64,000 nucleotides of DNA, from NCBI RefSeq assembly GCF_027921845.1, contig NZ_BSEN01000010.1:33923-97922 (forward strand), given 5' to 3'. The position numbers were made by a program, and so were the translations under genes. The notes below the pieces were generated by a model. It searched no databases. It saw nothing but the letters and a program-made list of their open reading frames with translations, and was not told where the DNA came from. This DNA is from Leifsonia poae (lineage in GTDB: Bacteria > Actinomycetota > Actinomycetes > Actinomycetales > Microbacteriaceae). Each line of letters starts with the position of its first letter. Positions within the stretch are counted from its first letter, which is position 1. Shown here piece after piece: positions 3,816-19,307 of this stretch.

Positions 3816-4583
3816 TCAGCGCGTGCGCGCGAAGAAGGTGCGGAGGCGGTAGCGATCGCCTGCGTAGGTGATCGTCGAGACGAACAGCGGGTGCTCTGCG
3901 CGGTCGACCGCGACCTGACGCATGACGAGCACCGGCTGCCCCGGCTCCAGCCCGAGATGGGCGGCGACGTCGGCCTGGGCACTCCGCGCCTCGATCGTCG
4001 CGTCCGCTCGCAAGGGCTCGACACCGGCGTCGGCGAGGCGCTGGTACAGCGAGTCGACGGCGAAGTCGGCCGAGGCCAGGTCGGGCGCGAGAGCGGCCGG
4101 GATGCGCGTGATGTCGACGGCGATCGGCACCTCGTCGAGCAGCCGAACGCGCTCGAGGTGGAAGAGGGGCGTGCCGGGGGCGACGGACAGTTCCTCGGCC
4201 TCGTCGAGCGTCGCGGACTTGGTCTCGGCGCGCAGCACCCGGGACGAGGCGACCAGCCCCATCCTCGTGGCGGTCTCGGTGAACGACTCCAGGCTGTTGG
4301 GGAACTCCTTGCCGACACTCGGCGCCTGCGCCACGTACCAGCCCCGGCCGTGCGACGCGCTCAGCACGCCGTCCTCGACGAGCTGCCCGAGCGCTTTGCG
4401 CAGAGTGACACGGGAGATGCTGAGCTGCTGGCAGAGCTCCCGCTCGGGAGGCAGGCGCATGCCCGGCTTCAGCACGCCGGTGGCGATCTCGTGCGTGATC
4501 AGGTTCACGGCCTGGATCCAGAGCGGCTCCGGGTAGTCAGGACGGATCGCCGCGACGGCGGCTCCCCCGCTGGCTTCACTCAT
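3816..4583 (-). CDS. GntR family transcriptional regulator, HutC/UTRA type
   Basis: DNA-binding repressor-type protein of 255 aa. The N-terminal winged helix (about residues 20-85) contains the GntR hallmark MRLPPERELCQQLSISRVTLRKAL in shortened form as PPERELCQQ and SRVTLRKAL, followed by the wing GRGWYV. The C-terminal half is a UTRA ligand-binding fold typical of HutC regulators of sugar and amino-acid uptake. I chose the ATG at 4583 because GGAGGG lies at 4592-4597; an upstream in-frame ATG at 4619 has no ribosome site. Lying between two glycoside importers, it is the obvious candidate regulator of the locus, and palindromes at 4656-4678 and an ATACCACT box at 4622-4629 lie in its promoter region. 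Confidence 0.93.
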   Translation of the reverse strand: MSEASGGAAVAAIRPDYPEPLWIQAVNLITHEIATGVLKPGMRLPPERELCQQLSISRVTLRKALGQLVEDGVLSASHGRGWYVAQAPSVGKEFPNSLESFTETATRMGLVASSRVLRAETKSATLDEAEELSVAPGTPLFHLERVRLLDEVPIAVDITRIPAALAPDLASADFAVDSLYQRLADAGVEPLRADATIEARSAQADVAAHLGLEPGQPVLVMRQVAVDRAEHPLFVSTITYAGDRYRLRTFFARTR

Positions 4584-4621
4584 CGGTTCCACCCTCCACT
4601 GTCCCCATGCACGCCTCATTC

Positions 4622-4629
4622 ATACCACT
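4622..4629 (-). promoter_or_regulatory. Candidate GntR operator half-site (GTGGTAT box) upstream of the regulator gene
   Basis: Reads AGTGGTAT on the minus strand, about 40 bp before the GntR start codon. The identical octamer occurs upstream of the Gfo/Idh gene (14879-14886), and GTGGTA also lies in the GH9 promoter (19321-19327) and at 15021-15027. Assignment to this GntR protein is inference from position and recurrence. Confidence 0.4.
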
Positions 4630-4655
4630 CGTTACCTTTTCGAGCCGATGCCGAG

Positions 4656-4678
4656 CCGAACCGGTTCGGAATATTCCG
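4656..4678. promoter_or_regulatory. Two overlapping perfect palindromes between the epimerase gene and gntR
   Basis: CCGAACCGGTTCGG (4656-4669, 14 bp, perfect) shares three bases with CGGAATATTCCG (4667-4678, 12 bp, perfect). The pair begins about 10 bp past the epimerase stop and lies about 75 bp upstream of the GntR start. Both palindromes lack a central spacer, which fits a dimer-binding operator better than an RNA hairpin terminator. Confidence 0.5.
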
Positions 4679-4687
4679 ATGTCCCGC

Positions 4688-5668
4688 TCACGGGCGCGCG
4701 ATCAGGCGGTCGAACGCCGCCGACAGCTCCTCGCTCACGCCGCGAGCATCCGGGGTGGTGTCGTGGTGGGCGATGATCTCCCTGGCACCCTGCGAGAAGC
4801 TCACCCGGGGAGCGAATCCGGGGACGAGCCGGCGCAGCTTGGCCGTATCGAAGAGCATGCTGTGCCGGAAGTCGTGCTCGAGCACCTCGCCCCAGCCCGG
4901 CCACTGCGCTGCGATCGACTCGCTCGACCGGTGCACGAGCCGCGGCGAGCGCACCCCTGCCGCGGCCGCGAGCTCGAGATGGATCTGGTCCCACGTGAGG
5001 ATGTCACCGCTGACCACATTGACGCTCTCCCCGACGGCGTGCTGGTTGCCGAGCAGTGGGTAGAAGGCCCTGGCGAAATCGCTGGAGTGCATCAACGTCC
5101 ACAACGACGTGCCGTCCCCGTGCACGATCACCGGTCGCCCCGTGCGCATCCGTTCGATGGCCGTCCACCCCGACAGCACGGGGATGGCCGTGCGGTCGTA
5201 GGTGTGGAACGGCCGCACGATCGTCAGCGGGAAGTCGCTCTCGCGATAGGCCTCTTCGAGGAAAAGCTCGCACGCGACCTTGTCGCGCCCGTAGCCGAAC
5301 ACCGGCTGCCTGCGCGGGCTCGACTCGGTGATCGGCAGGCTCGGCACCGGGCGGCCGAACACCGAGCAGGTGCTGATGAACACGTACTGCGAGGTGCGGT
5401 CGCGGAACAGTTCGACCTGCCCCTCGAGGTCGCGCGGGGTGAAGGCCACCCAGTTCACCACGGCGTCCCAGGTCTCGTCACCGAGCAGTTTGCCGAGGGA
5501 CTCCGGATCCCGCACATCGCCGTGCAGCGCCCGCACACCATCGCGAACGGTGCGACGCGGCTCTGACCGGGTGACGATCGTCACCTCGGCGCCCTGAGCG
5601 GCGGCCTCTTCCGCGGCCGCCGAGCCGATCATGCCGTTGCCGCCGAGGAACAGGATTCTGGTGCTCAT
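4688..5668 (-). CDS. NAD-dependent epimerase/dehydratase family protein (extended SDR)
   Basis: Predicted cytoplasmic NAD(P)-dependent sugar or keto-sugar oxidoreductase/epimerase, 326 aa. The Rossmann glycine motif is at residues 9-15 (GGNGMIG), the acidic/basic cofactor region follows, and the catalytic Tyr/Lys pair appears as YGRDK near residue 135, with a Ser/Thr-rich stretch STCSVFG before it. ATG at 5668 has GGGGAGAA upstream and overlaps the previous stop by 4 bp. It is the last gene of the minus-strand glycoside operon. The family acts on nucleotide or free sugars, so the exact substrate is open; context suggests reduction or epimerisation of an oxidised sugar. Confidence 0.88.
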   Translation of the reverse strand: MSTRILFLGGNGMIGSAAAEEAAAQGAEVTIVTRSEPRRTVRDGVRALHGDVRDPESLGKLLGDETWDAVVNWVAFTPRDLEGQVELFRDRTSQYVFISTCSVFGRPVPSLPITESSPRRQPVFGYGRDKVACELFLEEAYRESDFPLTIVRPFHTYDRTAIPVLSGWTAIERMRTGRPVIVHGDGTSLWTLMHSSDFARAFYPLLGNQHAVGESVNVVSGDILTWDQIHLELAAAAGVRSPRLVHRSSESIAAQWPGWGEVLEHDFRHSMLFDTAKLRRLVPGFAPRVSFSQGAREIIAHHDTTPDARGVSEELSAAFDRLIARP

Positions 5669-6432
5669 GCGGTTCTCCCCTGGGAAAGACCGCTGCCGAC
5701 GAGGTAGCGGTAGCTGGTTTCGAGTGCGTCGAAGGTGTCGACGTCCAGTCGTTCGAGTTCGACGATGTGCCAACGCAGACCGGACGACGCGGTGAGGATG
5801 GCGGACCAGTCCATCCGTCCGTCCCCGATCGGCGTCATCACGTCGTCGTCGTAGCTGTGTGCGGGTCCGTCTTTGATGTGCACCCGCTGCGCTCGGTCGC
5901 CCAGCCGGGTGAGCACCTCGGCCGGATCCGCACCACCCATCCGCGCCCAGTAGGCGTCGAGCTCGACCGTCACGCGGGGGTCGAGCAGGCCGAGCAGGAT
6001 GTCGTACGCCTGCCGCCCGTCGAACGCGTTCGTGAACTCGGCGAAATGATTGTGGTACGCGACGGCGAGTCCCCGGCCCGAGGCATTCTCGGCGGCCGCG
6101 TTCACCCGCTGCACCCCCCGCTCGATGCCCGCCGGACTGTCGAACTCCTCGCGCTCCATCGACCAGATCAGCGTGCCGGCGCCGAGCTCCTCTGCGTCGT
6201 CCAGGATGCGCTGCGCATCGGTGCCGGCCGGGAACGGCGTGTGCGCGCTGGTGATGGCGAGTCCCGCGGCTGCCGCGGCCTCCCGCACGCGCGACGGGCC
6301 GTATCGCTCGACGAGCCCATAGGTCTCGAGGCCGAGGTAGCCGATCCCCGCAACCCGTGCGAGGGTGCCCTCGAGGTCGGCCAGTGCGTGTTCGAGCACG
6401 GTGTAGCCCATCACGGCGATCGGAGCGGTCAC
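5665..6432 (-). CDS. TIM-barrel sugar phosphate isomerase/epimerase family protein
   Basis: Xylose-isomerase-like TIM barrel (AP endonuclease 2 superfamily), 255 aa, predicted cytoplasmic and metal-dependent. The order of barrel motifs fits the family: GIGYLGLETYG (strand 1), SAHTPFP (strand 2), YHNHFAEF (strand 4, metal/substrate region), VELDAYW, RVHIKDG and a C-terminal strand ending with IVELER. The start is GTG at 6432, overlapping the upstream ThuA-like gene by 4 bp. Family members include isomerases, epimerases and the beta-eliminating lyases of 3-keto-glycoside pathways. Next to Gfo/Idh and ThuA-like genes, a role in cleaving or isomerising an oxidised glycoside is plausible but not proven. 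Confidence 0.88.
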   Translation of the reverse strand: MTAPIAVMGYTVLEHALADLEGTLARVAGIGYLGLETYGLVERYGPSRVREAAAAAGLAITSAHTPFPAGTDAQRILDDAEELGAGTLIWSMEREEFDSPAGIERGVQRVNAAAENASGRGLAVAYHNHFAEFTNAFDGRQAYDILLGLLDPRVTVELDAYWARMGGADPAEVLTRLGDRAQRVHIKDGPAHSYDDDVMTPIGDGRMDWSAILTASSGLRWHIVELERLDVDTFDALETSYRYLVGSGLSQGRTA

Positions 6433-7097
6433 AGCGCGCCCGCCGCCCAGGCGATGGCCCGACGCACGAGCGTGCGCACCGACGGTTCACCCCACGAGCG
6501 CATGTCGTGTCCGAGGGCGAGGTACACCACGCGGCCGGCACCGACGGTGCGCGTGTACAGCACCGGGATCACCGCACCGTCGGCGTGATGACGCTGCGCG
6601 AGCACGTGCACGCCATCGTCGGCGAGCTCGAACTCGTAGTACTCGTCGAACAGATCGAAGTCGTCGAGACCGTCGGTGATCGGATGCTCGGCGACGATCT
6701 CGATCGTGTGGCGCCCCTCGTGGTGGCCCGGGCCGTGCGACAGGTAGCGGTTGCCCAGGAGCTCGAACATCGGCCGGTCGGCGGGATCGATGCCGTCGCC
6801 GTCCCAGCCCAGGATGTTCGCCCCGTGCACGCCGACCAGCCCCGTGCCGCCGGCGACGGCGGCGGCGAGCGCCTCCTGCTGAGCGGTGGGGAACTGGCCG
6901 CCGGCCGAATACAGCAGATAGACGTCGGCATCGGCCGTCTCCGGCCGTGGTTCGACGAAGCGGTTCATCCCCATCGCCCGGCGGGTCACCAGACCCGCCT
7001 CGATTCCGAGCTGCTGGAACACCTGCGATGCGGTGAGGAGGTCGTGGTGGATGTCGTCGCCGTTCACGACGACCAGTGCGTTGCGCGTGTCGCTCAT
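6429..7097 (-). CDS. ThuA domain-containing protein (copy 2)
   Basis: Class-I amidotransferase-like (ThuA) fold, 222 aa, no signal peptide. The N terminus NALVVVNGDDIHHDLLTAS matches the family's first strand and the conserved DxxHD region; GLVGVHGANILG and GHHEGRHTIEI are the other typical blocks, and the C terminus carries GRVVYLALGHD. ThuA proteins are associated with trehalose/disaccharide utilisation through 3-keto sugars in rhizobia, but their chemistry is poorly defined. It follows the binding-protein gene after an 89-bp gap containing a strong hairpin, and overlaps the isomerase gene. A paralogue lies at 13055-13750 in the same operon. Confidence 0.87.
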   Translation of the reverse strand: MSDTRNALVVVNGDDIHHDLLTASQVFQQLGIEAGLVTRRAMGMNRFVEPRPETADADVYLLYSAGGQFPTAQQEALAAAVAGGTGLVGVHGANILGWDGDGIDPADRPMFELLGNRYLSHGPGHHEGRHTIEIVAEHPITDGLDDFDLFDEYYEFELADDGVHVLAQRHHADGAVIPVLYTRTVGAGRVVYLALGHDMRSWGEPSVRTLVRRAIAWAAGAL

Positions 7098-7137
7098 CTC
7101 TCGTTCTTCTTCATCGTCGCGGGGAGGGTAAGGCGCA

Positions 7138-7176
7138 CCGACGGCGGACCGGCCCTCGCGTCCGGCCCGCCGTCGG
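7138..7176 (-). terminator. Long hairpin directly after the binding-protein gene
   Basis: Arms 7138-7152 and 7162-7176 pair over 15 bp with one mismatch around a 9-nt loop. There is no following T-run, so it probably stabilises the upstream binding-protein mRNA or reduces read-through rather than ending transcription completely. A comparable hairpin follows the other binding-protein gene (43967-43996). Confidence 0.6.
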
Positions 7177-7186
7177 TCTCAGTCGA

Positions 7187-8848
7187 TCAGGCGATCGGCT
7201 TGAGCTTCAGCGCGACCACCGGGTTGGGGTACGGCGCGAAGTACGGGTCCTGCTCGCTCGGCCAGCCGGTGACCTTCGCCGAACTCCAGTCGCCGTAGTT
7301 GCCCCAGTAGAACATGACGATCATCGGCAGCTGGTCGATCCAGATGCCCTCGATCTGCTCCAGGATCTGCGCGCGCTCCTCGTCCGAGGTGGCGAGCGGG
7401 TACTTGGCGAACAGCTCCTTGGCGACCGGGTCGTTGAACCGCTCGATGTTCTCGAACGTCGGCGTCGCTTTGCCGATGGGGTAGTACTTGTTCGGGTTCA
7501 TCATCGAGTCGTAGATGTTGAACGCGCGCGGCGCCGGCCCGACGGGGTAGCCGATGGTCGACTGGAAGGTGCCGTCGGCGGTGATCTTGTTGATGTCGTT
7601 CACCGACGTGGTGTCGATGTCGAGCTTGATGCCGAGGTCCTTCAGCTGCGACACGAGCACCTGGGCGCGGGACGCGATATCGGTGTACGACGCCGGGAAG
7701 CTGACGGAGAACTCGACCCGCTTGCCGCCCTTCTCGTAGTACCCGTCGCTGCCCTTGGTGTAGCCGGCATCCGTGAGCTGCTTCTCGGCGGCGGGCTTGT
7801 CCTGCTTGAAGACCAGGTCTTTGTACTTGCTCGCCACCTCGCTCTCGAACGCGGGCATCGGCAGGCCGGTCTGGCTCGTGGCCGCCGGGGAGTCCGTCGC
7901 CGCTCCGACCTGCTCCCGGTCGACGCCGAGGCTGATCGCCCGCCGCACGGCGATGTCGCTGAGCGGCCACTTCTCGAGGTTCGGGATGAGGCCGTCAGAG
8001 CCCACCACGGGAGCCCAGTAGTGGTTGTCCTTGCTCTTCGAGGTGTAGGTCTTCTCGGCGTCGGCGATGTATGTGCCGCTCCAGTCGGCCTGACCCTGTA
8101 CGAGCGCGTTGGTCTGACCCTGGTTGTCCTTGTACGGGATGAACCGGATGCCGGCGATTTTGGCCGGAGCCTGCCAGTAGTCCTTGTTCGTCTTCAGCAC
8201 GAAGCTCTGGGGCGAGAAGGTGTCGAGTTCGAACGGGCCGGTGCCGACCGGGTTCTTGTCGACATAGGTGGTCGGGTCGCCGACCTTCGACCAGATGTGC
8301 TTGGAGACGATCGCGGCCGAGACCAGCGAGGTGAACTTCGTCTCCGACGGATCCTTGAACGTCATCACGACCGTGTTCGCGTCCTTCGCCGTGATGGTGT
8401 CGAAGTCGACGCCTCCGACGTTGAGAGCCGGATACTTTTTGAGCAGCTCGTAGGTGAACACGACGTCGTCTGCCGAGAACGGCTTGCCGTCGGTCCACTT
8501 CACGCCCTGCTGCAGGTCGAGCGTCAGTGTCTTGTTGCTGTTCGACCAGGTCCACTTCTTCGCGAGCCACGGGATGTCTTTGCCGATGTCGACGTTGTTG
8601 ATCTGCACGAGCGGCTCGTAGATGAACCCGCCGGCGCCCTGGTTGGTATAGGTCGCCCCCTGCGCCGTGTTCGGCAGGTAGGGGTTGAACGACTGGGTCA
8701 GCGAGTCCGCCTGACTCGCGACGTTGAGGATCAGTCCGTCACCCGACCCGCCACTGCTCGACGAGCACGCGGCGAGCGGGACGATCAGTCCGGCGGCCAG
8801 CGTCGCACCGATGATGGTGCGGGCGAGCGTTGCCTTTCTGCGTTTCAT
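7187..8848 (-). CDS. ABC transporter substrate-binding lipoprotein, family 5 (SBP_bac_5)
   Basis: Extracytoplasmic ligand-binding subunit of the minus-strand importer, 553 aa. A lipoprotein signal occupies residues 1-28 (basic KRRK, hydrophobic core, lipobox LAAC), so it should be anchored to the outer face of the membrane. Family-5 features follow: an SFNPYLP opening, [20 protein letters not shown] near residue 130 (quoted in part: [15 protein letters not shown]), and a long two-lobed domain. ATG at 8848 has GGGAG at 8856-8860 and overlaps the ATPase stop. Family 5 binds peptides, nickel or oligosaccharides; the surrounding sugar genes favour a glycoside. Confidence 0.93.
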
Positions 8849-10008
8849 TGCTGTTCTCCCTTAGTACGTGTTGTGTGTGTTGGAGCGTTCGCGGGGCCGG
8901 TGCGCACGATGCGCCCGGCCGGCCGCACCTCGGTGCGGCGGTATACGGCGGCGTTCTCGGCGCGCCCTTCGGCGGCCTCCGCGTCGTCGGCGTAGAGCCA
9001 GCAGTTCGCCCACTGGCCGTTCTCGAGCTCGAAACGGGGAGGCGCCTGCGTCGCGCAGCGCTCCATGGCGAACGGGCATCGGGGATGGAACCGGCACCCG
9101 GCGGGCGGATCGATGAGACTCGGTGGCTGACCGATGTCGCGCGGTGCGGCATCGTCGTCGCGCGACGGATCCGGCGCCGACGAGATGAGCAGCTGCGTGT
9201 ACGGATGCGCCGCGTTCTGGGTGACCTGCTCGCTCGGACCGGCCTCGACGAGCTGCCCGGCGTACATCACCGTGGTGTCCTCGGCGAAGTAACGGGCGGA
9301 CGCGATGTCGTGCGTCACGTAGAGCAGCGCGACTCCGCGATCCTCCACCAGCCGGCGCAGCAGGTTGAGCACGCCGAGCCGGATGGAGACGTCGAGGCTC
9401 GAGACGGGCTCGTCGGCGAGGAACACATCCGGGTTGGCCGCGAGCGCTCGCGCGATCGAGATCCGCTGGAGCTGACCGCCCGAGAGCTCGTGCGGGAACT
9501 TCTCGGTGAACTGCCGCGCCGGCCGCAGGTTGACCTGTGCCAGCAAGTCCTCGATCACGGCCTTCTGCTCTCTCGCCGTCTTCGCCGGGTGATGGATGCG
9601 CACGGCGCGCGACAGCGTTCGCGCGATGGTCGCGACCGGGTTGAATGACCCGAACGGGTCCTGCAGGATCAACTGCACCCGGCTCACGTGAGCGCGGAGC
9701 GCCTTGCCTCCTCGCACGCGCACCGCCGTGCCGCGGTAACGGACTTCACCGCCGGTGAGCGGATAGAGCTGCGCGAGCAGGCGCGCGAACGTCGACTTGC
9801 CCGACCCCGACTCCCCCACCAGCGCCATGATGCGTCCGGCGTGCAGGCTCAGCGAGACGTCGTCGACCGCGTGCACCACGCGGCGCGGGCCCCGCCGGAA
9901 GAGCGACCCTCGCACCGCGAAGTGCTTGGTGACGTGCACGGCCTCCAGCACGGGCACATCGCCCCTCTCGGAGCTGGCAGCATTCGTCATGGCGTCGACA
10001 GCGCTCAT
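8845..10008 (-). CDS. Opp/Dpp-type ABC importer ATP-binding protein, DppF-like
   Basis: ATPase of the minus-strand importer, 387 aa. An N-terminal extension of about 25 residues precedes the ABC domain, which shows Walker [10 protein letters not shown], signature LSGGQLQR, Walker [13 protein letters not shown] and H-loop VTHDIAS. The C-terminal oligo_HPY domain carries the Cys motif [14 protein letters not shown], as in canonical DppF/OppF. ATG at 10008 overlaps the upstream fusion-gene stop by 4 bp; an internal ATG at 9990 is a less likely alternative. It should pair with the ATPase domain fused to the permease encoded just upstream. Confidence 0.92.
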
Positions 10009-12080
10009 CGAGCGTCCTCCAGTTCGGCGAAGTCGGAATCGTCGGCGCTGAGAGCGGAAGCGGCTGCACCGTCGCCCTCGTAGAGCAGGCACGCGGCCTC
10101 CGGCTGACGCCATTCCGCGGGCCCGGCGAGCGGGATCAGCGGGGGCACCACTGTCGTGCAGCGGTCGAAGGCGAGTGGGCAGCGGTCGGCGAAGGCGCAT
10201 CCGGCCGGGAGCCTGCGAAGGTCGGGTGGTGAACCGGGGATGCCGGTGAGCTCGTGCTTCGGACCGGAGAGCGTCGGGAACGACGCGAGCAGCCCCTGGC
10301 TGTACGGGTGGCGGGGATTCCGGTAGAACTCCTTGGCATCGGCCAGCTCCACCACGCGTCCGGCGTACATCACCGCGATGGTGTCGGAGAGCTCGATCAG
10401 CAGCGAGAGATCGTGCGTGATGAAGATCACCGAGAAGCCGAGACGCTCCTTCAGCTCGATGATCTTCTCGATGATCTGGCGCTGGATCACCACATCGAGG
10501 GCGGTGGTCGGCTCGTCCATCACGATGATCTCAGGGTCGAGCGCGAGGCCGACCGCGATCATGGCCCTCTGCCGCATGCCGCCGGAGAGCTCGTGCGGGT
10601 AGGCGTTCACCCGGTCGGTCTGGATGCCGACGAGCCCGAGCAGCTCGATCACCCTGGCGGCCCGTTCCTGCTTGGTCATGTCGGGTCGGTGCGCCCGCAA
10701 CGAGTCGTCGAGCTGCGCGCCGATCGTCAGGATGGGATTGAGGGCGTGCATCGCGGACTGGAAAACGATCGACAGCTCCTCCCAGCGGAAGTCGCGCAGC
10801 TCCGAGTCGCTCATCGAGAGGATGTCGGTCTTCGTTCCGTCGGCGTTCGTATAGAGCATCTCGCCACCGCTGATCTGCGCGGGCGGCTTGTGCAGCCGGG
10901 TGATCGCGTAGGCCAGAGTCGACTTGCCGCTTCCCGACTCCCCGGCGATACCGAGCACCTCGCCGCGACGAAGAGTCAGCGACACATCGTTCACCGCCGG
11001 CGTCACCGAGTTCTCGCCGATGTAGTCGACCGTGAGGTTGCGCACCTCGAGGATCACATCGCTCGTGACCGGGTCGAACGGCACCGGCGCCGATCGCTCG
11101 CCGCGCTTGCGCTGCGGGCGCTTCACGATCGCCTGGCGCTTGGCCTTCGCCTGCGCCCTCTGGGCCTTCTTCGTCCCGATGCCCGCCTGCCGCAGCCGCG
11201 GGTTGATGAACTCGTCGATGCCGAAGTTCACCAGCGAGAGCCCGGTGCCGAGGAGCGCGATCGCGAGGCCGGCAGGCACGAACCACCACCACGCACCGGT
11301 GAGCATCGCGCTCGACACCTGCGCCCAGTAGAGGATCGTTCCCCACGACCACTCGGTGACGTTCGTGAGGCCGAGGAACGCGAGGCTCGCCTGGGTGAGG
11401 ATCGCACCCGTCACTGTGCCGAGGAACGACGCGGCGATGATGGCGATCTGGTTCGGGAAGATGTCGCGGAAGATGATCCTCGACGTCCGCTCGCCCGTCG
11501 CCCGTGCCGCCTCGACGAAGTCGCGCTTGCGCAGCGACAGCGTCTGCGCACGCAAGACGCGTGCGCCCCACGCCCACCCCGTGATGGAGATCACCAAGAT
11601 GATGCCGAGCGAGCCGGTCTTCGGCAGGTACGACGCGAGGATCACCGTCAGGGGCAGGGCCGGGATGACGAGGAACACGTTCGCCAGCAGCGACAGCAGC
11701 TCGTCGGTGAGACCGCCGAGGTAACCGGCGGCGAGTCCGACCAGCACCGACAGCACCGTGGCGACGATCGCCGCGCCGACACCGACGAGCATCGAGACCT
11801 GCGTGCCGTAGAGCATCTGCGAGAGGATGTCCTGCCCGGTCTGGGTCGTTCCGAGCCAGTGCTCCGGGCTCGGCGGCATCAGGGTCTGCTTGCTCACCGC
11901 CGAGGGGTCGTACGGGGCGATCCACGGACCGATGACCGCCAGCACGCAGAAGATGAAGACGACGATGACGCCGGTCAGTGTCCACGGACGCCGGAACGCG
12001 CGCAGCCAGGCGAACCGGGAGGAGGCCTCGAGGGGTTCCGACGATTCGGCCTCGGCGACGGTCGTGGTGGTGATGGCCAT
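10005..12080 (-). CDS. Fused ABC importer permease (DppC-like) and ATP-binding protein (DppD-like)
   Basis: A single 691-aa polypeptide joins two subunits that are separate in the plus-strand importer. Residues ~35-300 are a DppC-type permease (HWLGT periplasmic motif, EAA loop [19 protein letters not shown]). Residues ~303-335 form a very basic linker rich in Lys, Arg, Gln and Ala. Residues ~343-691 are an ABC ATPase with Walker [10 protein letters not shown], signature LSGGMRQR, Walker [13 protein letters not shown] and an oligo_HPY Cys tail ([15 protein letters not shown]). The reading frame is open across the junction, so the fusion is not a sequencing gap. It begins 3 bp after the upstream permease stop. 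Confidence 0.92.
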
Positions 12081-12083
12081 GGG

Positions 12084-13058
12084 TCAGCCCTCTCGTGTGC
12101 GTGGGTCGAGGAAGACGTAGAGGATGTCGGCGAGCATGTTCGCGATCAGCACGGTGATCGTGATCACCAGGAAGATGCCCTGCATCAGCGGGTAATCCTG
12201 GGCCTGGGCCGCCTTGAACAGCACGGTGCCGATTCCCGGATAGTTGAAGACCACCTCGGTGACGATCGAGCCGCCGACCACGAAGCCGAGCGACATCGCG
12301 AAACTCGAGAACGAGGGCAGGATGGCGTTGCGCGCTGCGTACGTGTACATGACCCGGCGCTTGGACAGCCCCTTCGCCTCGGCCAACCGCACGTAGTCCT
12401 CGCTGACGGTGGTGACCATCATGTTGCGCATCCCGATCAGCCAGCCGCCGATGCTCGCGACCACGATCGTGAGCGCGGGCAGGGTCGCGTAGTAGACCGA
12501 GCTGCCGATGAATCCCCAGTTGAGTCCGATCGTCTCCGTCACCGAGTAGCCGCCGGAAAGGGGGAACCACCGCAGGATGATGGAGAAGATCAGCACGACG
12601 CAGATCGCGAACCAGAAGTACGGGATCGACGAGAGCAGGGTCGTCACGGGGATGAGGCCGTCCAGCCAACTCCCCCGCTTCCAGCCGACGATCATGCCGA
12701 GTCCGGTTCCGATGACGAAGCCGAGCACGGTGCAGACGCTGATCAGGATCAGCGTCCAGCCGATGCTGCTCGCGAGCACGTCGGCGACCGGCGTCGGGTA
12801 GTAGGCGTACGAGATGCCGAAGTTGCCGGAGAACAGGTTGCGCCAGTAGTCGAGGTACTGCTGCCACAGGCTCGCGTCGCTCTGCCCGAAGAGCACGCGC
12901 AGGGCCTCGATGGCCTGCGGTGACAGCTTGCCGTGGAACTTCGCGATGAGCGCATCCGCCGGGCTGCCCGGCATGATGCGCGGCAGCAGGAAGTTCAGGC
13001 TGATCGCCGCCCATGCCGTGATGACATAGAAAACGGCTCTCCGCAGAAGCACTCTCAT
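12084..13058 (-). CDS. Opp/Dpp-type ABC importer permease, DppB-like
   Basis: Pore subunit of the minus-strand importer, 324 aa, clearly paralogous to the protein at 39-1022 (shared N-terminal pattern AISLNFLLPR...GSPAD). It has an N-terminal anchor helix, the FGISYAYYPTP stretch and a C-terminal BPD_transp_1 domain with EAA loop AEAKGLSKRRVMYTYAARN. ATG at 13058 overlaps the ThuA stop by 4 bp. It should pair with the permease half of the downstream fusion protein. Confidence 0.92.
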   Translation of the reverse strand: MRVLLRRAVFYVITAWAAISLNFLLPRIMPGSPADALIAKFHGKLSPQAIEALRVLFGQSDASLWQQYLDYWRNLFSGNFGISYAYYPTPVADVLASSIGWTLILISVCTVLGFVIGTGLGMIVGWKRGSWLDGLIPVTTLLSSIPYFWFAICVVLIFSIILRWFPLSGGYSVTETIGLNWGFIGSSVYYATLPALTIVVASIGGWLIGMRNMMVTTVSEDYVRLAEAKGLSKRRVMYTYAARNAILPSFSSFAMSLGFVVGGSIVTEVVFNYPGIGTVLFKAAQAQDYPLMQGIFLVITITVLIANMLADILYVFLDPRTREG

Positions 13059-13750
13059 GCGGTTCGATCCTCGCTCTCGGTGTGGTGGATGCTGGAGGGG
13101 GCGAGCCAGTCGGCGGCCTCCGTGAGGATGGCGCGCACGCCGGGTTCGGCCCAGGCGCGCATGTCATGACCGAACTGCACGAAGCACACGCGTCCCCGCC
13201 CGAAACGGTGGGCCGTCACGAGCGGTTCCCGCCCGTCCGCCGACACGCGGTCGGCGAGCACCTCGACGCCGTCGGCGAGCGACAGCCGGTAGTGCTCATG
13301 AGTGAGCTCGAACGGCTCGACCGCGCTCGTCATCGGGTGCCCCGCGAGCGCAACACCGAATCGGCTCTCATGCGGCAGCGGTCCGTGATCGACGAAGCGC
13401 GCGCCGATCAGGCGGGCCAGCTCCTGGTCGTCGTCGAAGAATGCCGTGGAGTGCACGGCGAGCAGCCCGCTCCCCCGGCTCACCGCGGCGGCGAGCCCCG
13501 CTCGTTCTGCCGCCGTGAACGTTCCGGCAGCGCGGTAGAGCACGACGAGGTCGTCGTCGAGTGGCTCGGCGAGACAGGCCGTCCCGATCCGGACGCGGGC
13601 CACGAACCCTGCGGCAGCCAGGATGTCCTGCAATTCGACGCTGGCCGTGAAGAGGTCTTCGTACACGTCGTCGCCCGCGATCACCACCTGGGCGGTGCGC
13701 GTCGGCGTGCGTGTGGTCATCCCGGAAGTCGTCATCGTCTTCGTGTGCAT
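13055..13750 (-). CDS. ThuA domain-containing protein (copy 1)
   Basis: ThuA/class-I amidotransferase-like protein, 231 aa, cytoplasmic. After a variable Thr-rich N terminus it shows VVIAGDDVYEDLFTAS, GLLAVHSTAF, the VDHGPLPHESRFGVAL region and the C-terminal block GRVCFVQFGHD, parallel to copy 2 at 6429-7097. The ATG at 13750 shares its first base with the last base of the upstream TGA (TGATG), indicating coupling; internal ATGs (MTTSG, MTTRT) are alternatives. Two diverged ThuA paralogues in one operon could act on different intermediates or form a heteromer; this is inference. Confidence 0.85.
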   Translation of the reverse strand: MHTKTMTTSGMTTRTPTRTAQVVIAGDDVYEDLFTASVELQDILAAAGFVARVRIGTACLAEPLDDDLVVLYRAAGTFTAAERAGLAAAVSRGSGLLAVHSTAFFDDDQELARLIGARFVDHGPLPHESRFGVALAGHPMTSAVEPFELTHEHYRLSLADGVEVLADRVSADGREPLVTAHRFGRGRVCFVQFGHDMRAWAEPGVRAILTEAADWLAPSSIHHTESEDRTA

Positions 13751-14829
13751 CAGTAGGTCGACCGCAGTTCGCCGGTCGGCGCCCACAGTCCTTGTTCGAG
13801 GCCGCTGAGCAGGGCGTTGTCCCGCGTCTCGAGCGGCAGCGCAACACGGCGCCGGGACCGGCTGCTCTCGTACGTCGCGAAGATCAACTCCGCACCGGCG
13901 AGCCCGTGACGCATCGCCAGTTCAGGCTCGCGATCCGTCTCCAGCCCGTCGACCAGATCGGCGACCGCCGCTGCAGTGCACGCGAAGATCGCCGGGTCGA
14001 TGCCGTGATCCCAGTGATCGGAGTTCGTGTCATAGGGAGAGGCGAACCGCAGGTCCTTCTCTCCGAAGCGGTGCACGATGCACTCCGAGCCGCGCACCAC
14101 GATGCGTCCGCGGGTGCCCTGCACGATCAGCCCGAGGCCGTTCTCGCGGTTGAGGACCGGCGTCGCCGGTTCGCGACCGGTCGAGACGACCGCACGCACG
14201 CCGTCCGCCCACGCCACCTGGGTGATCGACGAGGTCTCGACGAAGGCTCCGTACACATAGCGATTGGTGGTGACGTCGATCTGGCCGATGACCCACTCGG
14301 CGGGCGCATCCGACCGGTAGAACAGGATGAGGTCGAGGATGTGGCTGCCCCAGTCGAGCAGGTTGGGGCAGTATCCCTCGATGCTCACCAGGTCGCCGAT
14401 GGAGCCGGCGGCGAGTTGCTCGCGGGCGAAACGGTGCACCGGCTCGAATCGGCGCTGCAGGTTGACGGTGAGCTGCACACCGGTGCTCTCGGCGAGACGG
14501 GCCATGTCGACGGCGTCGCCGTAGCTGAGCGCGATGGGCTTCTCGCAGTGGATGGCGCGCACGCCGGCGTCGATCGCTGCCCCGACCGCGTCGAGGTGGT
14601 AGCCGGGAGGAGTGCAGACGCTGACGATATCGGGCCTGACTGCCTCGAGCATCTCGCGGTAGTCGTCGTAGATCCCGGGAATGCCCAGCTCTCCGGCCAG
14701 AGCTGTGGCAGTCTGGAGGTTCACGTCCGCCACCGCGCTGAGACGCACACGGTCGTCCGAGAGGTAGGCCGCCGCATGCACGCGACCCTGGCCTCCGGCG
14801 GCGATCACCGCCGCACGATACGTCTGCAT
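13750..14829 (-). CDS. Gfo/Idh/MocA family NAD(P)-dependent oxidoreductase
   Basis: Sugar or glycoside dehydrogenase, 359 aa, cytoplasmic. The N-terminal Rossmann domain has a glycine-rich turn AAGGQGRVH (residues 10-18). The catalytic Lys lies in EKP at residues 96-98, and the C-terminal domain carries the family's His motif as DWGSHILD. The start ATG at 14829 is set by GGGAGAAG just upstream, although the frame stays open to 15036. It is the first gene of the minus-strand glycoside operon. In characterised analogues, Gfo/Idh enzymes of such clusters oxidise glycosides at C3; the exact substrate is unknown. Confidence 0.92.
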   Translation of the reverse strand: MQTYRAAVIAAGGQGRVHAAAYLSDDRVRLSAVADVNLQTATALAGELGIPGIYDDYREMLEAVRPDIVSVCTPPGYHLDAVGAAIDAGVRAIHCEKPIALSYGDAVDMARLAESTGVQLTVNLQRRFEPVHRFAREQLAAGSIGDLVSIEGYCPNLLDWGSHILDLILFYRSDAPAEWVIGQIDVTTNRYVYGAFVETSSITQVAWADGVRAVVSTGREPATPVLNRENGLGLIVQGTRGRIVVRGSECIVHRFGEKDLRFASPYDTNSDHWDHGIDPAIFACTAAAVADLVDGLETDREPELAMRHGLAGAELIFATYESSRSRRRVALPLETRDNALLSGLEQGLWAPTGELRSTY

Positions 14830-14862: not shown

Positions 14863-14886
14863 AATGTATCCCAAACTAATACCACT
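14863..14886 (-). promoter_or_regulatory. Promoter of the glycoside operon with embedded GTGGTAT box
   Basis: A -10-like TACATT lies at 14863-14868 on the minus strand, and AGTGGTAT (14879-14886) sits in the -35/spacer region, where a bound repressor would block polymerase. GTAT and ATAC ends form an imperfect dyad around TAGTTTGGG. No good -35 hexamer is visible. The 224-bp divergent region 14830-15053 holds no gene. Confidence 0.45.
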
Positions 14887-15047: not shown

Positions 15048-15053
15048 GATGCC

Positions 15054-16001
15054 ATGCTGATCAGTCGCGTCGTCGCCCCCCGCACCTCCCGCATCGTCGA
15101 GCTCCCCACACCCGCGCCGGCGCGCGGCCAGGTGCTCGTGGAGATCCTCGCCAGCGGTGTCTGCACATCCGATCTCGGTCCCTGGCTGCGGGGGCCGCAG
15201 GGCGACGACCCCATCGAGCTCGGCCACGAGACGGCCGGTCGAGTGATCGCGGTCGGTTCCTGGAACTCACGGTGGCGCGAAGGCGACCTCGTCACCGGCC
15301 TGGGCGGCCCCGGCTTCGCCACGCATGCCGTGCTCGACGACGAGTGGCTCCTGCCCGTTCCCGCCGGGATCGATCCGGCGCTGTCGATCGGCGAGCCGAT
15401 CGCCACCCTCGAGGAGGCGATCAGTCGCACCCCGATCGGTGCCGGGAGCCGCGTCGCCGTCGTCGGGCTCGGATTCATGGGCCTCGGCCTGCTGCAGCTC
15501 GCCCGCACCCGCGCGCCGCGCACCATTATCGGCGTCGACCCGAATCCCGAGGCCCGTCGTCGCGCACGAGAACTCGGCGCCCAGGTCGTGCTGCATCCGG
15601 ATGAGGTGGCGGGGTACGTCGCGTCGCAACCGGACGCCGGCTCCGCCGACCCTCGCGCCGACGTGGTGCTCGAAGCGACTGGTGTCACTCCGGGCCTGGA
15701 GACGGCGTCCCCGCTGGTCGCGCCCTTCGGCACCCTCTGCATCGTCGGCTATCACCACGCCGGAACCGCGATGCTCGACATGGAGCTCTGGTACAAGGGC
15801 GCGACGGTCGTGAACGGCTTCTGCCCCGACCGCCCCCGCGTGATGCAGGCGATGGATGCGGCGCTCGGGCTCGTCGCAAGCCGGCGCTTCACATACGCGC
15901 CCCTGGTGACGCATCGGTTCGGACTCGACGGCGTCGACGAGGCGTACACACTGATGTCCGAGCGGGACCCCGGTTTCGTCAAGGCCGTCGTCACCCCCTG
16001 A
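15054..16001 (+). CDS. Zinc-binding alcohol/sugar dehydrogenase, MDR superfamily
   Basis: NAD(P)-dependent medium-chain dehydrogenase, 315 aa. The GroES-like domain carries the catalytic zinc ligands Cys37 (GVCTSD) and His58-Glu59 (ELGHETAG). The Rossmann domain shows VVGLGFMGLG. The structural-zinc lobe with four closely spaced Cys, found in classical ADHs, is absent and the enzyme is somewhat short. It is divergent from the Gfo/Idh gene and probably leaderless. In this neighbourhood it could oxidise or reduce a sugar or sugar alcohol released from imported glycosides; no specific substrate can be assigned. Confidence 0.88.
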   Translation: MLISRVVAPRTSRIVELPTPAPARGQVLVEILASGVCTSDLGPWLRGPQGDDPIELGHETAGRVIAVGSWNSRWREGDLVTGLGGPGFATHAVLDDEWLLPVPAGIDPALSIGEPIATLEEAISRTPIGAGSRVAVVGLGFMGLGLLQLARTRAPRTIIGVDPNPEARRRARELGAQVVLHPDEVAGYVASQPDAGSADPRADVVLEATGVTPGLETASPLVAPFGTLCIVGYHHAGTAMLDMELWYKGATVVNGFCPDRPRVMQAMDAALGLVASRRFTYAPLVTHRFGLDGVDEAYTLMSERDPGFVKAVVTP

Positions 16002-16032
16002 TCGGGCCCCGGCGACAGTGGAAAAGAATTCC

Positions 16033-16081: not shown

Positions 16082-16103
16082 ACCAATGACGAAGGGAATA
16101 CCC

Positions 16104-17531
16104 GTGACCCACACGACGCCATCGACGGCCGCCTCGGCGCCCGGCTCCGCACGCTCCGCGACCGGCGCAGCCGGCCCCGGCCAGCCCCGCCTCCGGCGAG
16201 CGCTCGGCACCCCCGCCCTCCTTCTGTTCGGGCTGGCCTACATGCTTCCACTCGCGGTCTTCACCACCTACGGCCTCGTGACCGACACCACGAAGGGCCA
16301 CCTGGCCGGCGCATACCTGGTGACCACGATCGCGATGCTGTTCACCGCGTACAGCTACGCCAACATGGTGCGCGCCTATCCGGTCGCCGGCTCCGCCTAC
16401 ACCTACACTCAGCGCTCGTTCGGCCGTCATCTCGGATTCCTGACCGGCTGGACGCTGCTGCTCGACTACCTCGCGCTGCCGCTGCTGAACTACCTGGTGA
16501 TCGGCATCTATCTGAACGCGGCCTTCCCCGCCATCCCGGCGTGGGTGTTCGTCGTGGTGTCCGTCGTGCTCGTCACGGTGCTGAACGTGATCGGCATCAC
16601 CCTCGTCTCGAGTGCGAACCTCGCGCTCGTCGGCGTGCAGATCGTCTTCATCGTGGTCTTCGTCGTCACCGGCATCGCCTACCTCACCGGCGCGGCGCAA
16701 CTGCCCGACCTGCTGTCGCCGTTCTTCTCCGCCGGCACCCCGCTGTCCGCGATCGCGGCCGGATCGGCCATCCTCGCGCTCGCCTTCCTCGGCTTCGACG
16801 CGGTCTCGACCCTGTCGGAGGAGGCGAAGGACGCGAAGAAGTCCATCCCGCGCGCGATCATGCTCTGCACGCTGGCCGGCGGCCTGCTGTTCATCGTCAC
16901 GGCGTACATCGCCGGCCTGGTCTTCCCCGATTACGCGAACTTCACCGACCTCGACTCCGCGCCGCTCGATGTGATGACCCGTATCGGCGGAAGCGCTCTC
17001 TTCACCTTCTTCACCGCCGCGTACATCGCCGGCAGCTTCGCGTCGGCCATGACGTCGCAGGCGAGCGTCGCGCGCATCCTGTACGCGATGGGCCGGGACG
17101 GCCAGCTCCCCAAGCGCGTCTTCGGGGTGGTGCACGCGCGCTTCAAGACCCCCTGGCTGGCCGTTATCGTGGTGGGTGCGGTCGGGCTGGTCGGCGCCCT
17201 GCTGCTGCCGTTGGATGTTGCCGCCTCCGTCATCTCGTTCGGGGCGCTGGTGGCCTTCAGCTTCGTCAACCTCGCCGTCATCAAGCACTACGTGATCGAC
17301 CGCAGGCAGCGTGGCCCGAAAGCCGTCGTCGCCTACATCGTGGCGCCCGCCATCGGCTTCGCCCTGACGGTCTGGCTCTGGACGAGCCTCTCCATCACGA
17401 CGTTCGTCGCCGGCGGCATCTGGGTGCTGGCCGGCGTCGTCATCCTCGCGCTGATCACCGGCGGCTTCCGGCACAAACCCCCGGTGATGGACTTCTCCGA
17501 AGAGGACCCGGCACCGCTCCCCGCGCAGTGA
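16104..17531 (+). CDS. APC family amino acid permease
   Basis: Polytopic membrane transporter with about 12 predicted helices, 475 aa from the chosen start. I prefer GTG at 16104 because GAAGGGA (16091-16097) is properly spaced; an ATG at 16086 would add six residues and has no ribosome site. APC features include the broken first helix (LLLFGLAYMLPLAVFTTYG), the conserved FLGFDAVSTLSEEAKDAKK region around residues 230-250 (quoted in part: FDAVSTLSEEAKDAKK) and a soluble acidic C terminus. Probably a proton-coupled amino acid or amine importer. The operator upstream suggests sugar-linked LacI control, which is unusual for an amino acid carrier. Confidence 0.9.
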   Translation: MTHTTPSTAASAPGSARSATGAAGPGQPRLRRALGTPALLLFGLAYMLPLAVFTTYGLVTDTTKGHLAGAYLVTTIAMLFTAYSYANMVRAYPVAGSAYTYTQRSFGRHLGFLTGWTLLLDYLALPLLNYLVIGIYLNAAFPAIPAWVFVVVSVVLVTVLNVIGITLVSSANLALVGVQIVFIVVFVVTGIAYLTGAAQLPDLLSPFFSAGTPLSAIAAGSAILALAFLGFDAVSTLSEEAKDAKKSIPRAIMLCTLAGGLLFIVTAYIAGLVFPDYANFTDLDSAPLDVMTRIGGSALFTFFTAAYIAGSFASAMTSQASVARILYAMGRDGQLPKRVFGVVHARFKTPWLAVIVVGAVGLVGALLLPLDVAASVISFGALVAFSFVNLAVIKHYVIDRRQRGPKAVVAYIVAPAIGFALTVWLWTSLSITTFVAGGIWVLAGVVILALITGGFRHKPPVMDFSEEDPAPLPAQ

Positions 17532-17532
17532 C

Positions 17533-17559
17533 CTGCGCGCCGGACGTCAGCCCGCGCAG
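17533..17559. terminator. Bidirectional hairpin between convergent APC and GH9 genes
   Basis: CTGCGCG (17533-17539) pairs with CGCGCAG (17553-17559). It spans the 15-bp gap between the two stop codons and could serve both transcripts. No T-run on either side, so strength is uncertain. Confidence 0.4.
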
Positions 17560-19307
17560 ACGGCCAGCAGGAACCACGCCGAGTGCGGGATCCACTGCTC
17601 GGCCCAGCGCCACTCGTTGCCGTCCGGCGCGTCCGCCGGCAGGAACGCGATACCGCGTTCCTCGCCCCATCCGCTCGTGATGCCGTTGACGATGCCGCCC
17701 GGACTGTTCTGGTAGACGCCGGAGTACTCGACGTTGGCACGTCCGCGACCCTGCAGCATGCAGACGTCGAACGGGTTCAGGCCGCCGACCCAGGCCGTGA
17801 TGTCTGCGCTCAGCCGGGCGAGCCTGTCCCGTGTCCCCTCCGGGCAGTCGTCGAGGAGCGCTGATCGGCTCGCGGCGAAGGCGATTGACGAGATGCCCGC
17901 GTTCTCCCCCTGCCACCAGTACCCGGTCTCGTTGTCGTGCGGGAAGAAGAACGAATCGTGCGCTGCGCCACCGACCGGCTGCACGAGCTGGCGCGGGTAG
18001 CCGAACGGATTGTCGACGGCGTCGGTGCGGGCGAGGATGCCCTCCACCAGGGTGATCGCCGTCGCCCGTGCCGATCGGGCGTCGTCCACGCGATCGGCGA
18101 TGCCGCCCTCGTCGAGCACGTCCGCCCACCGCAGCAGCGCGACGATCGGGAGCCCGGGCTCAGCCGCGTGGAAGAACGGCCTGCCTTCGCTGTCGGCCAC
18201 GAGGAAGGCGGCGTCCGCTGCGTCGTGCCGCACTCGGGCCGCGAGGGCGCGAGCCCTGCGCTGAGCCGCTGCGGCGAACCGCGTGACGTCGGCACCGGCG
18301 ATCCGGCTCGCTCGCACGAGCTCGGCCGCCGCGATCAGGGCGCAGTAGTCGTCGAGCACCGTCTCTTCGCCGTCGAAGAGGTACTCCGTGTTGTGCTCCT
18401 CCAGGTGGTCGAACCCGCGGATTGCTGCGGCCAGGTAGGCCTCCGCGTCGAAGTCCCCCCGCGCATCCGCTGTCGAGGCGAGTGCGAGTGCCGCGATCGC
18501 GAGCCCGCCACCGTGCCGGTACGCCGCCTGCCAGCGCTGGGTGCGCACGCTGTCCTGCAGCGGTGCATTGATCACGCGTTCGTCGAGGTCCTTGGTGAGC
18601 GCGTCGAAGATGCCGGTGTAGAAGTAGCCTTCCGGAGCTTGGAAGCGCACCAGGAAGTCGGCACCGAACAGTCCCTCATCGCGCAGCCGGGGATACTGGC
18701 TGGTCTCGAAATCCGGATGCGCGCGCCGCAGCTCATCGCCGGCCGTGAGCAGCGCCCACGCGCACAGCGGGATCTGCTGCGGGCTCATCGTGCGGGTATA
18801 CGTGAGGTGGCTCAGGAACTTGCTGTAGTCGCCCGAGGCATCGAGCCACCCTCCACGCGCATCGACGGTGCGACCGGAGTCGTCGCCATAGAACCGCGCT
18901 GCCGCGTCTTTGCGCTCGATCTCGCCGCTCGACCGCTGCGACCGGAAGTAGGCGGTGACATCCGAGACGACGAGCGACGGGATGCGGTGTTCGCCGACCT
19001 CGAACACCTCGCTCGCCACGCGGGTTCCGTCGACCTGCGCGACCAGCCGGTAACGGCCGGGCTCGGTGAGCCCGGTGAGATCGACACGCTGGAAGACCGC
19101 GGTCGACCAGGCGTCGACCCGCGCGGGCGTGCCGAGCGGGAGGTCGACCGCGACGGCGTCGCCGCGCTCGGGCTCCACGGCAACGGATGCGACGTGGGCG
19201 CCCGCGGTCGCGATCACCGCGGCCTTCGGAGACCGTGCGTCGTAGCCCAGATGATCGACCAGCACCGTCGCACGTCGTCCGACCGATTCCACGAGCCCTC
19301 CCGGCAT
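17547..19307 (-). CDS. Glycoside hydrolase family 9 protein, cytoplasmic
   Basis: Inverting glycosidase candidate, 586 aa. Residues ~12-105 are the Ig-like N-terminal domain common in GH9 (CelD_N), followed by an (alpha/alpha)6 catalytic domain. The catalytic Asp region reads GGWLDASGD (residues 152-160), with one residue more than the DAGD of secreted endoglucanases, followed by SHLTYTRTMSPQQIP; the C-terminal acid region includes GNEWRWAEQWIPHS. There is no signal peptide, so it should act on imported oligosaccharides. ATG at 19307 follows a TATACG -10 box by 10 nt, so the mRNA is probably leaderless. Activity could be exo-glucosidase, exo-glucosaminidase or related. Confidence 0.85.
   Translation of the reverse strand: MPGGLVESVGRRATVLVDHLGYDARSPKAAVIATAGAHVASVAVEPERGDAVAVDLPLGTPARVDAWSTAVFQRVDLTGLTEPGRYRLVAQVDGTRVASEVFEVGEHRIPSLVVSDVTAYFRSQRSSGEIERKDAAARFYGDDSGRTVDARGGWLDASGDYSKFLSHLTYTRTMSPQQIPLCAWALLTAGDELRRAHPDFETSQYPRLRDEGLFGADFLVRFQAPEGYFYTGIFDALTKDLDERVINAPLQDSVRTQRWQAAYRHGGGLAIAALALASTADARGDFDAEAYLAAAIRGFDHLEEHNTEYLFDGEETVLDDYCALIAAAELVRASRIAGADVTRFAAAAQRRARALAARVRHDAADAAFLVADSEGRPFFHAAEPGLPIVALLRWADVLDEGGIADRVDDARSARATAITLVEGILARTDAVDNPFGYPRQLVQPVGGAAHDSFFFPHDNETGYWWQGENAGISSIAFAASRSALLDDCPEGTRDRLARLSADITAWVGGLNPFDVCMLQGRGRANVEYSGVYQNSPGGIVNGITSGWGEERGIAFLPADAPDGNEWRWAEQWIPHSAWFLLAVCAG

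Follow-up and report, generated by a model that had tools for sequence, protein, structure and literature searches.

A possible co-regulated gene island for 3-keto cleavage of amino-sugar glycosides in Leifsonia poae, with counterparts in two actinobacterial families

Oxidation at C3 followed by elimination is a recently recognised alternative to the hydrolysis of glycosides, and has, to our knowledge, been studied mainly on neutral sugars. The Thu system of rhizobia (ThuA/ThuB), which acts on trehalose, combines ThuA with a Gfo/Idh enzyme and involves 3-keto disaccharides. The chitin-utilisation operon of Vibrio includes a family-5 binding protein for chitin oligosaccharides and an amino-sugar kinase, and we know of no Gfo/Idh enzyme, TIM-barrel lyase, ThuA or copper amine oxidase encoded there. 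Here we describe a locus of Leifsonia poae (family Microbacteriaceae) at the left end of a 64,000-nucleotide stretch of DNA, hereafter the window (C10:33923-97922, C10 being contig NZ_BSEN01000010.1 of a 4.07-Mb genome in 15 contigs), which continues into the 20 kb before it (L006, C10:14000-33999). We read this locus as a single co-regulated catabolic island of approximately 31 kb and 25 genes (C10:22.5-53.2 kb), whose right part lies in the window, a reading held tentatively and at slightly less than even confidence. Unlike the Thu system, which relies on an importer of a different class, the island has two ThuA proteins, amine-related genes and TIM barrels resembling the eliminase AtOGE described below.

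Among characterised pathways, the Lgd system for levoglucosan in Bacillus smithii comprises four enzymes (LgdA, LgdB1, LgdB2 and LgdC): a dehydrogenase oxidises C3, elimination and hydration fall to LgdB1 and LgdB2, which carry the same annotation (sugar phosphate isomerase) and are unalike in sequence, and the Gfo/Idh enzyme LgdC reduces, with a sugar ABC importer adjoining the genes (excerpted text of PMC7676230). Like Lgd, the Leifsonia island pairs two TIM barrels with Gfo/Idh enzymes and an importer; unlike it, the island carries a copper amine oxidase (CuAO), a kinase, a SIS protein, ThuA, GH9 and GntR regulators, none of which is named in the Lgd gene map within that excerpt, where the regulator is LacI-type (PMC7676230). 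With the AtOGE system of Agrobacterium the island shares a TIM barrel in which the metal ligands and the catalytic histidine are the same, whereas the first step in that system belongs to the flavoenzyme GlycDH and that of the island presumably to a Gfo/Idh protein; the excerpted AtOGE report mentions no amino-sugar or amine genes (PMC10628242). A GH9 exo-enzyme is held in common with the VC0615 chitin-utilisation operon of Vibrio (PMC6096475, in excerpt).

The part of the island within the window is dominated by a minus-strand operon at 3816-14829 that reads, from its promoter onward, Gfo_B, ThuA2, DppB, a DppC-DppD fusion, DppF, the family-5 binding protein (SBP), ThuA1, TIM_B, SDR and GntR_B (Table 1). 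Its nine junctions comprise five overlaps of 4 bases each and four gaps of 3, 14, 68 and 89 bases, the 14-base gap (ThuA2/Gfo_B) varying with the choice among three ThuA2 start codons. An earlier note, made from the letters of the window, had described a tightly overlapping operon combining a Gfo/Idh dehydrogenase, two ThuA-like proteins, a TIM barrel, an SDR protein and a family-5 importer, next to a Zn-type dehydrogenase and a cytoplasmic GH9. All of these genes are present with matches to their families (the two ThuA proteins score 108.8 and 74.0 bits against PF06283, cut-off 33.4), and GH9 has no obvious signal peptide as judged by eye; to the list have to be added the GntR-UTRA repressor and the DppC-DppD fusion, and the Gfo/Idh gene probably starts at 14829 rather than 15036. 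Two Opp/Dpp importers do exist as claimed, the second lying at 39-3815, outside the region the note had described; the gene for its binding protein precedes the window. Divergent from that binding protein, a second minus-strand operon upstream of the window encodes Gfo1, GntR_A, CuAO, TIM_A, Gfo2, the SIS protein, a BadF-type kinase and an aldehyde dehydrogenase (ALDH). The observation made from the window is thus confirmed and its interpretation partly supported, its genes being part of a larger unit.

To establish how far these genes are inherited together, 20 islands were read: the window's own, seven more in Leifsonia, one each in a metagenome-assembled genome (MAG) and in G009 (other genera of Microbacteriaceae), and ten in the family of Actinacidiphila alni. 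Genes were assigned automatically, anywhere in the stretch, at an identity of at least 40% for most genes and 50% for the rest; all islands were found through ThuA2 or TIM_B, and the counts for these two are therefore partly by construction. Fifteen genes were called in 20 of 20 islands, namely GntR_B, ADH, DppB, the CD fusion, DppF, SBP, ThuA1, TIM_B, SDR, Gfo1, CuAO, TIM_A, Gfo2, SIS and BadF, the best conserved being Gfo1 (mean identity to the window's copy 85.7%) and CuAO (82.9%). Weaker calls among these are ThuA1 in G818 (approximately 50% identical and sited beyond BadF) and BadF in G750 (41% identical, beside GH9), and in G009 both GntR queries hit what is apparently one broken GntR gene. 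Other counts were 18 for GntR_A and for Gfo_B, 16 for ThuA2, 11 for GH9, nine for the ALDH orthologue, and seven each for an APC permease and the second importer; two islands without a GntR_A call still carry a second GntR gene, which scores closer to GntR_B. The association of the genes, which recur together in 20 islands, is not due to chance. The earlier note had named a lack of co-inheritance as a refutation of its view; this check did not refute it, the genes being found together across two bacterial families, with ThuA2 and Gfo_B dispensable: both are missing in G750 and G771, and ThuA2 alone in G818 and G009. The G009 island, a single run with one importer, contains several frame breaks (e.g. 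in ADH, CuAO and SIS); this genome is 86% complete, and sequencing error is possible.

A search with ThuA2 returned 3 of 299 Microbacteriaceae genomes at E<=1e-20, the window's own included. A second ThuA2 search, sensitive to close relatives only, covered 84,980 species and gave five loci (three Actinacidiphila, one Streptomyces and one Actinomycetales MAG, the last apparently the same contig as G268 of the family search, with equal match identities). With TIM_B (E<=1e-60), the A. alni family gave matches in 11 of 297 genomes, four of them already known from the ThuA2 search and one (G704) carrying a variant island; in Leifsonia 8 of 28 genomes matched, each with the island around TIM_B. The last result disposed of an initial view, based on five sampled genomes without ThuA2, that the island is absent from the rest of the genus. 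A GntR_A search of 396 genomes of the phylum (E<=1e-70) returned the window's own genome only. The second importer was found only in the window's genus, where its presence in seven of eight islands also led us to reject the idea that it is unique to the window's genome. Its binding protein shares just 31-33% identity with binding proteins of the first type in other islands, and the two importers, as judged by this divergence, are not copies of one another.

A shared operator links the two halves of the island. The repeat CCAAN5TACCAC was derived by eye from the Gfo_B/ADH promoters of 13 islands, in 10 of which it is exact; G750 and G818 have CCAC for CCAA, the G009 promoter fails to match the motif even in relaxed form, and one stray match falls in the G818 flank (L092:2179). 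Across the whole L. poae genome the exact pattern has two matches, one at C10:48793 (window 14871) in the Gfo_B/ADH promoter (B) and the other at C10:32099 in the promoter between the second importer and Gfo1 (A). Because both sites had already been seen when the pattern was written, an independent test was made with a position weight matrix (PWM) built from 11 sites, all outside the genus. Over 84 kb (C10:14000-97922) its best hit (31.8) fell in the B promoter, the next two (19.0 and 12.0) both fell in the A promoter, and the fourth (11.7) marked the start of GntR_B. In all seven held-out genus islands the top three sites of approximately 40 kb were those of the A, B and GntR_B promoters, with the repeat exact at A in 7/7 and at B in 2/7, and matrix sites were also located 5' of GH9 in G992, G980 and G995, three of the five held-out genus islands having GH9. 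With two mismatches allowed, the window contains 13 repeat matches against 16.4 expected, and weak sites therefore carry no weight by count. The placement of these predicted sites suggests that the same repressors control the two operons, the two importers and perhaps GH9.

The nearest solved relatives of GntR_B, itself a GntR-UTRA protein, are YvoA/NagR (102 bits) and DasR (84 bits), which we take to be sensors of phosphorylated amino sugars. DasR recognises a palindromic site; unlike DasR, most islands have two GntR paralogues, and their operator is mainly the CCAAN5TACCAC repeat. A DasR-like palindrome, TTGGTCTACACCAA, is present at one promoter of the window's island but was set aside in favour of the repeat, its further matches being one near match before GntR_A in G704 and several weaker ones in other islands, inside the Gfo1 gene or elsewhere.

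The best solved relative of TIM_B is 8bvk, corresponding to AtOGE (77.8 bits, the next scoring 41.6). In the excerpted report this O-glycoside beta-eliminase of Agrobacterium binds metal through H132, D163, H189 and, weakly, E233; H134 is catalytic, the H134A variant being inactive, and an alternative metal position involves E39, H66 and E161 (PMC10628242). Residues H132, H134, D163, H189, E233, E39 and H66 of AtOGE align with H127, H129, D159, H185, E225, E36 and H64 of TIM_B, and these seven positions are invariant in the 12 TIM_A and TIM_B sequences aligned, from six islands; E161 is also kept in TIM_B (E157). TIM_B thereby carries the metal-ligand and catalytic-histidine residues of the AtOGE type, and is a putative Mn-dependent enzyme of 3-keto-glycoside cleavage, supporting the oxidise-and-eliminate route proposed in the earlier note. 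Of the three Gfo/Idh proteins in the island, Gfo_B (with EKP and DWG[ST]H conserved in six sequences) and Gfo1 possess a DxGxH-type motif, and Gfo2 does not. In the window's class, all 27 loci that were scanned (L040-L066) have a Gfo2 homologue (45-57% identity) next to the TIM gene; of the 30 loci returned, the three left out were the window's own and G355, both with a Gfo2 homologue, and G607, without one. AlphaFold models of the window's Gfo_B and the A. alni Gfo1 had mean pLDDT (predicted local distance difference test) values of 55 and 42 and were set aside.

AtOGE-like TIM barrels would also suit cleavage of a neutral (plant) beta-glycoside after oxidation at C3, with the amine genes incidental, a reading close to that of the earlier note. 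We consider this improbable, and a generic plant glycoside or cellodextrin is not supported: CuAO, SIS and BadF, which the island adds to the genes then known, were called in 20 of 20 islands, a chitin-oligosaccharide binding protein is among the nearest solved relatives of SBP, and GH9 is of the Vibrio glucosidase/glucosaminidase type. Nor is the GH9 hydrolysis that the note had placed beside oxidation a general feature, with GH9 near just 11 of the 20 islands. Catabolism of inositol or of a rhizopine-like aminocyclitol was considered in turn, with IolG, IolE and IolM among the best NCBIfam models for the island's proteins; their scores lie far below the cut-offs (IolG 90.6, 72.4 and 142 against 355; IolE 41 and 34 against 290; IolM 77 against 450), and this explanation, which we regard as extremely unlikely, was set aside.

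Clues to a nitrogen-bearing substrate come from several proteins. CuAO scores 825 bits against the primary-amine oxidase model NF008559 (cut-off 651) and 735 bits against 1rjo, of the Arthrobacter phenylethylamine oxidase type, and its topaquinone (TPQ) motif NYDY, copper-ligand histidines and base aspartate all align to 1rjo. Most of what we take to be the channel residues of phenylethylamine oxidase are also kept, and since the channel is largely of that type, it gives no pointer to the substrate. Copper amine oxidases usually act on a CH2-NH2 group. The best nine solved relatives of SBP (192-195 bits) are peptide or ABC-transporter binding proteins together with 1zty, a chitin oligosaccharide binding protein. 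The SIS and BadF proteins belong to their superfamilies, SIS with weak likeness to NagB-II and GlmS and BadF to NagK. GH9 matches 3h7l, 6gdt and 5dgq at 411-425 bits across residues 16-585. Of these, 6gdt is VC0615, an enzyme that acts on both chitosan oligosaccharides and beta-glucosides, and the VC0615 homologue PBPRA0520 prefers chito- over cello-oligosaccharides (PMC6096475, in excerpt). Each of these clues is weak alone; taken together, the types of SBP, GH9 and GntR, and more weakly SIS and BadF, suggest an amino-sugar substrate.

The same types of SBP, GH9, kinase and GntR would also be expected of an island for chitosan oligosaccharides, in which GH9 would cut imported oligomers of glucosamine (GlcN), or of GlcN and N-acetylglucosamine, the kinase and the SIS protein would pass GlcN on to glycolysis, and the redox enzymes and CuAO would handle by-products or minor linkages. 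Two variant islands, G704 and G607, whose TIM_B is approximately 50% identical and which are outside the 20 counted, bear on this possibility. Both carry ThuA1, TIM, SDR, GntR, SIS, BadF and ADH with GH9 in the neighbourhood, and apparently use a different transporter; G704 has in addition GH20, a permease of the BPD_transp_1 family and CuAO with a GntR_A-like gene, and G607 an open reading frame (ORF) resembling GH1, as judged by eye. The amino-sugar module thus lies near GH9 and GH20 in one variant, and near GH9 and a GH1-like ORF in the other, in keeping with use of chitosan. Across the 20 islands, however, GH9 was not found near nine, whereas CuAO and Gfo1 are present in all and well conserved, and GlcN oligomers offer no CH2-NH2 group; we think chitosan use rather unlikely.

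A molecule with both an amine and amino-sugar rings could instead be an aminoglycoside-like pseudo-oligosaccharide of the kanamycin or paromomycin type, or a natural relative: Gfo1 would make a 3-keto ring, the AtOGE-like lyases would cleave it, CuAO would remove the aminomethyl nitrogen, and the amino sugar would be phosphorylated and deaminated. The top solved relatives of Gfo1, 6nor (115 bits) and 6jw6 (109 bits), are presumably GenD2 and KanD2, an identity that could not be confirmed. Their molecule names read just "Putative NAD dependent dehydrogenase" and "Dehydrogenase", and no open-licence paper tying the codes to GenD2 or KanD2 was found among the matches listed. GenD2 is the 3''-dehydrogenase of gentamicin A2 and alone gave no detectable product in vitro, partner enzymes being needed (excerpt of PMC4340712). 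The Gfo1 scores are weak for so broad a family, with other relatives close behind (91 bits for the third). No resistance gene is present among the annotated genes, no search aimed at resistance genes having been made, and carriage of the island by 8 of 28 Leifsonia genomes suggests a common nutrient. This explanation is in our view very unlikely, although if true a class of antibiotics, or its natural relatives, would become food. In the excerpted account of aminoglycoside subsistence, growth was reported but kanamycin was not reduced and the mechanism was called inconclusive (PMC4707250).

From the joint inheritance, the shared operator, the family memberships and the conserved TIM-barrel active sites we infer, with confidence that falls somewhat short of even, a route that takes up an amino-sugar glycoside bearing a primary amine and cleaves it by 3-keto chemistry, its reactions, their order and the substrate alike. 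A Dpp-type importer would take up the intact molecule, an NAD-dependent Gfo/Idh enzyme (Gfo1 and/or Gfo_B) would oxidise the sugar at C3, TIM_B would beta-eliminate the aglycone, TIM_A and/or ThuA would hydrate the product, and Gfo2, ADH or SDR would reduce the 3-keto sugar. The BadF-type kinase may then phosphorylate the amino sugar and the SIS protein deaminate or isomerise it, while CuAO could convert the primary amine to an aldehyde for oxidation by ALDH. GH9, where present, might hydrolyse ordinary beta-glucosaminyl or glucosyl bonds in parallel, and the two GntR repressors, one of them (GntR_B) resembling DasR/NagR, would control the island through one operator type. Chemistry of the 3-keto kind is known; its coupling to amine oxidation and amino-sugar salvage is undescribed in the open-licence literature found, no description of this gene combination having been located among the matches listed, and no open-licence paper matched 3-keto-glucosamine-type compounds. 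If true, an island in two actinobacterial families would extend C3 oxidation and elimination to nitrogen-bearing glycosides. The co-regulated gene set is testable, with Gfo1, TIM_B and CuAO as the first enzymes for finding the substrate.

Several observations weigh against this pathway. Genes may move together without sharing a pathway. Protein distances, compared pairwise for 12 genes in 12 islands (leaving out G009 and the genus islands read later), correlate at 0.85-0.97 as expected of a unit, but the two-family structure of the sample alone would also raise such correlations. The exact operator is not rarer in the genome than its reversed control (two matches against three), and its location, not its number, is therefore the evidence. 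SBP5, GntR-UTRA and Gfo/Idh are broad families; no curated 3-dehydrogenase model reached its cut-off, BT_2158 and BT_2159 falling far below; and no dedicated hydratase was found among the island proteins, where TIM_A or ThuA are candidates. SIS scores 40.4 bits against a NagB-II cut-off of 430, and BadF 38.5 against 370 for NagK. Nine of the 20 islands gave no GH9; in two of these nine (acid and CBMA29) the contig ends at BadF. No orthologue of ALDH was found in 11 of the 20 islands. Five of these 11 (MAG, A. yanglinensis, G765, G799 and G771) encode another ALDH (34-37% identity) close to BadF, one ORF beyond it on the other strand in G765 and beside it in the remaining four, and three of the five, scanned with NCBIfam, passed no cut-off among the matches listed. 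Finally, in the stretches read, neither G704 nor G607 has a Gfo/Idh gene and G607 has no CuAO, so that the amino-sugar module is separable from the Gfo/CuAO module.

Table 1. Features of the island and its surroundings. Positions without prefix are those of the window; C10 positions are those of the contig, and L positions those of the individual stretches read.
Feature	Position	Strand	Evidence and occurrence
ALDH, aldehyde dehydrogenase	C10:23062-24438	-	
SIS protein, then BadF-type kinase	between Gfo2 and ALDH in operon order	-	
Gfo2, third Gfo/Idh	C10:26423-27550	-	
TIM_A, second TIM barrel	C10:27547-28257	-	
CuAO, copper amine oxidase	C10:28257-30254	-	
GntR_A, GntR repressor	C10:30255-31043	-	
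Gfo1, Gfo/Idh	C10:31016-32098	-	
Second importer, binding protein	C10:32165-33904	divergent from second operon	upstream of window
Second importer, DppB permease	39..1022	+	7/20 islands
Second importer, DppC permease	1049..2029	+	translation; matching position in genus islands
Second importer, DppD ATPase	2026..2883	+	translation
Second importer, DppF ATPase	2880..3815	+	7/20 islands
GntR_B, GntR-UTRA repressor	3816..4619	-	nearest solved relatives YvoA (NagR), DasR; 20/20 islands
Operator-like site at GntR_B start, overlapping first codons as called	4610..4631	+	PWM 11.7; same place in 7/7 held-out genus islands
SDR, epimerase/dehydratase type	4688..5668	-	PF01370; 20/20 islands
TIM_B, AtOGE-like putative 3-keto-glycoside beta-eliminase	5665..6432	-	PF01261; active-site residues kept; 20/20 islands (search query)
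ThuA1	6429..7097	-	PF06283; 20/20 islands
SBP, family-5 binding protein	7187..8848	-	Vibrio-type chitin-oligosaccharide binding protein among nearest solved relatives; 20/20 islands
DppF ATPase	8845..10008 (ORF reaches 10200)	-	20/20 islands
DppC-DppD fusion	10005..12080	-	one importer gene; called in 20/20 islands
DppB permease	12084..13058	-	20/20 islands
ThuA2	13055..13735 (start uncertain; ORF reaches 13786)	-	PF06283; 16/20 islands
Gfo_B, Gfo/Idh dehydrogenase	13750..14829 (ORF reaches 15036)	-	PF01408; 18/20 islands
Operator CCAAN5TACCAC, Gfo_B/ADH divergent promoter	14871..14885	+	one of two exact genome matches; PWM top of 84 kb
ADH, Zn-dependent dehydrogenase	15054..16001	+ (divergent from Gfo_B)	PF00107/PF08240; 20/20 islands
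APC amine/amino-acid permease	16086..17531	+	7/20 islands, window's genus only
GH9, VC0615/PBPRA0520 exo-glucosaminidase/glucosidase type	17547..19307	-	N-terminal CelD_N; near 11/20 islands
Two weak operator-like sites 5' of GH9	19313..19347	+	two-mismatch matches, count not above chance
Small membrane protein	L006:8530-9066	-	
Small membrane protein	L114:7875-8405	-	
Small membrane protein	near L014:12873-13346, L033:16446-17135, L088:4493-5137		

Other features were noted around the island. Behind ALDH, several islands encode a small, apparently multi-pass membrane protein, five of which were scanned and gave no Pfam match. A third relative of TIM_B (33% identity) begins at window 63754 and extends past the window end (C10:97676-98413), with one TGA within the match. 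Just beyond the window, at L007:2010-5143 (C10:99909-103042), a run of Gfo/Idh, ThuA and Gfo/Idh genes follows a regulator-like ORF, and a search of the window's genome identified five ThuA genes in all.

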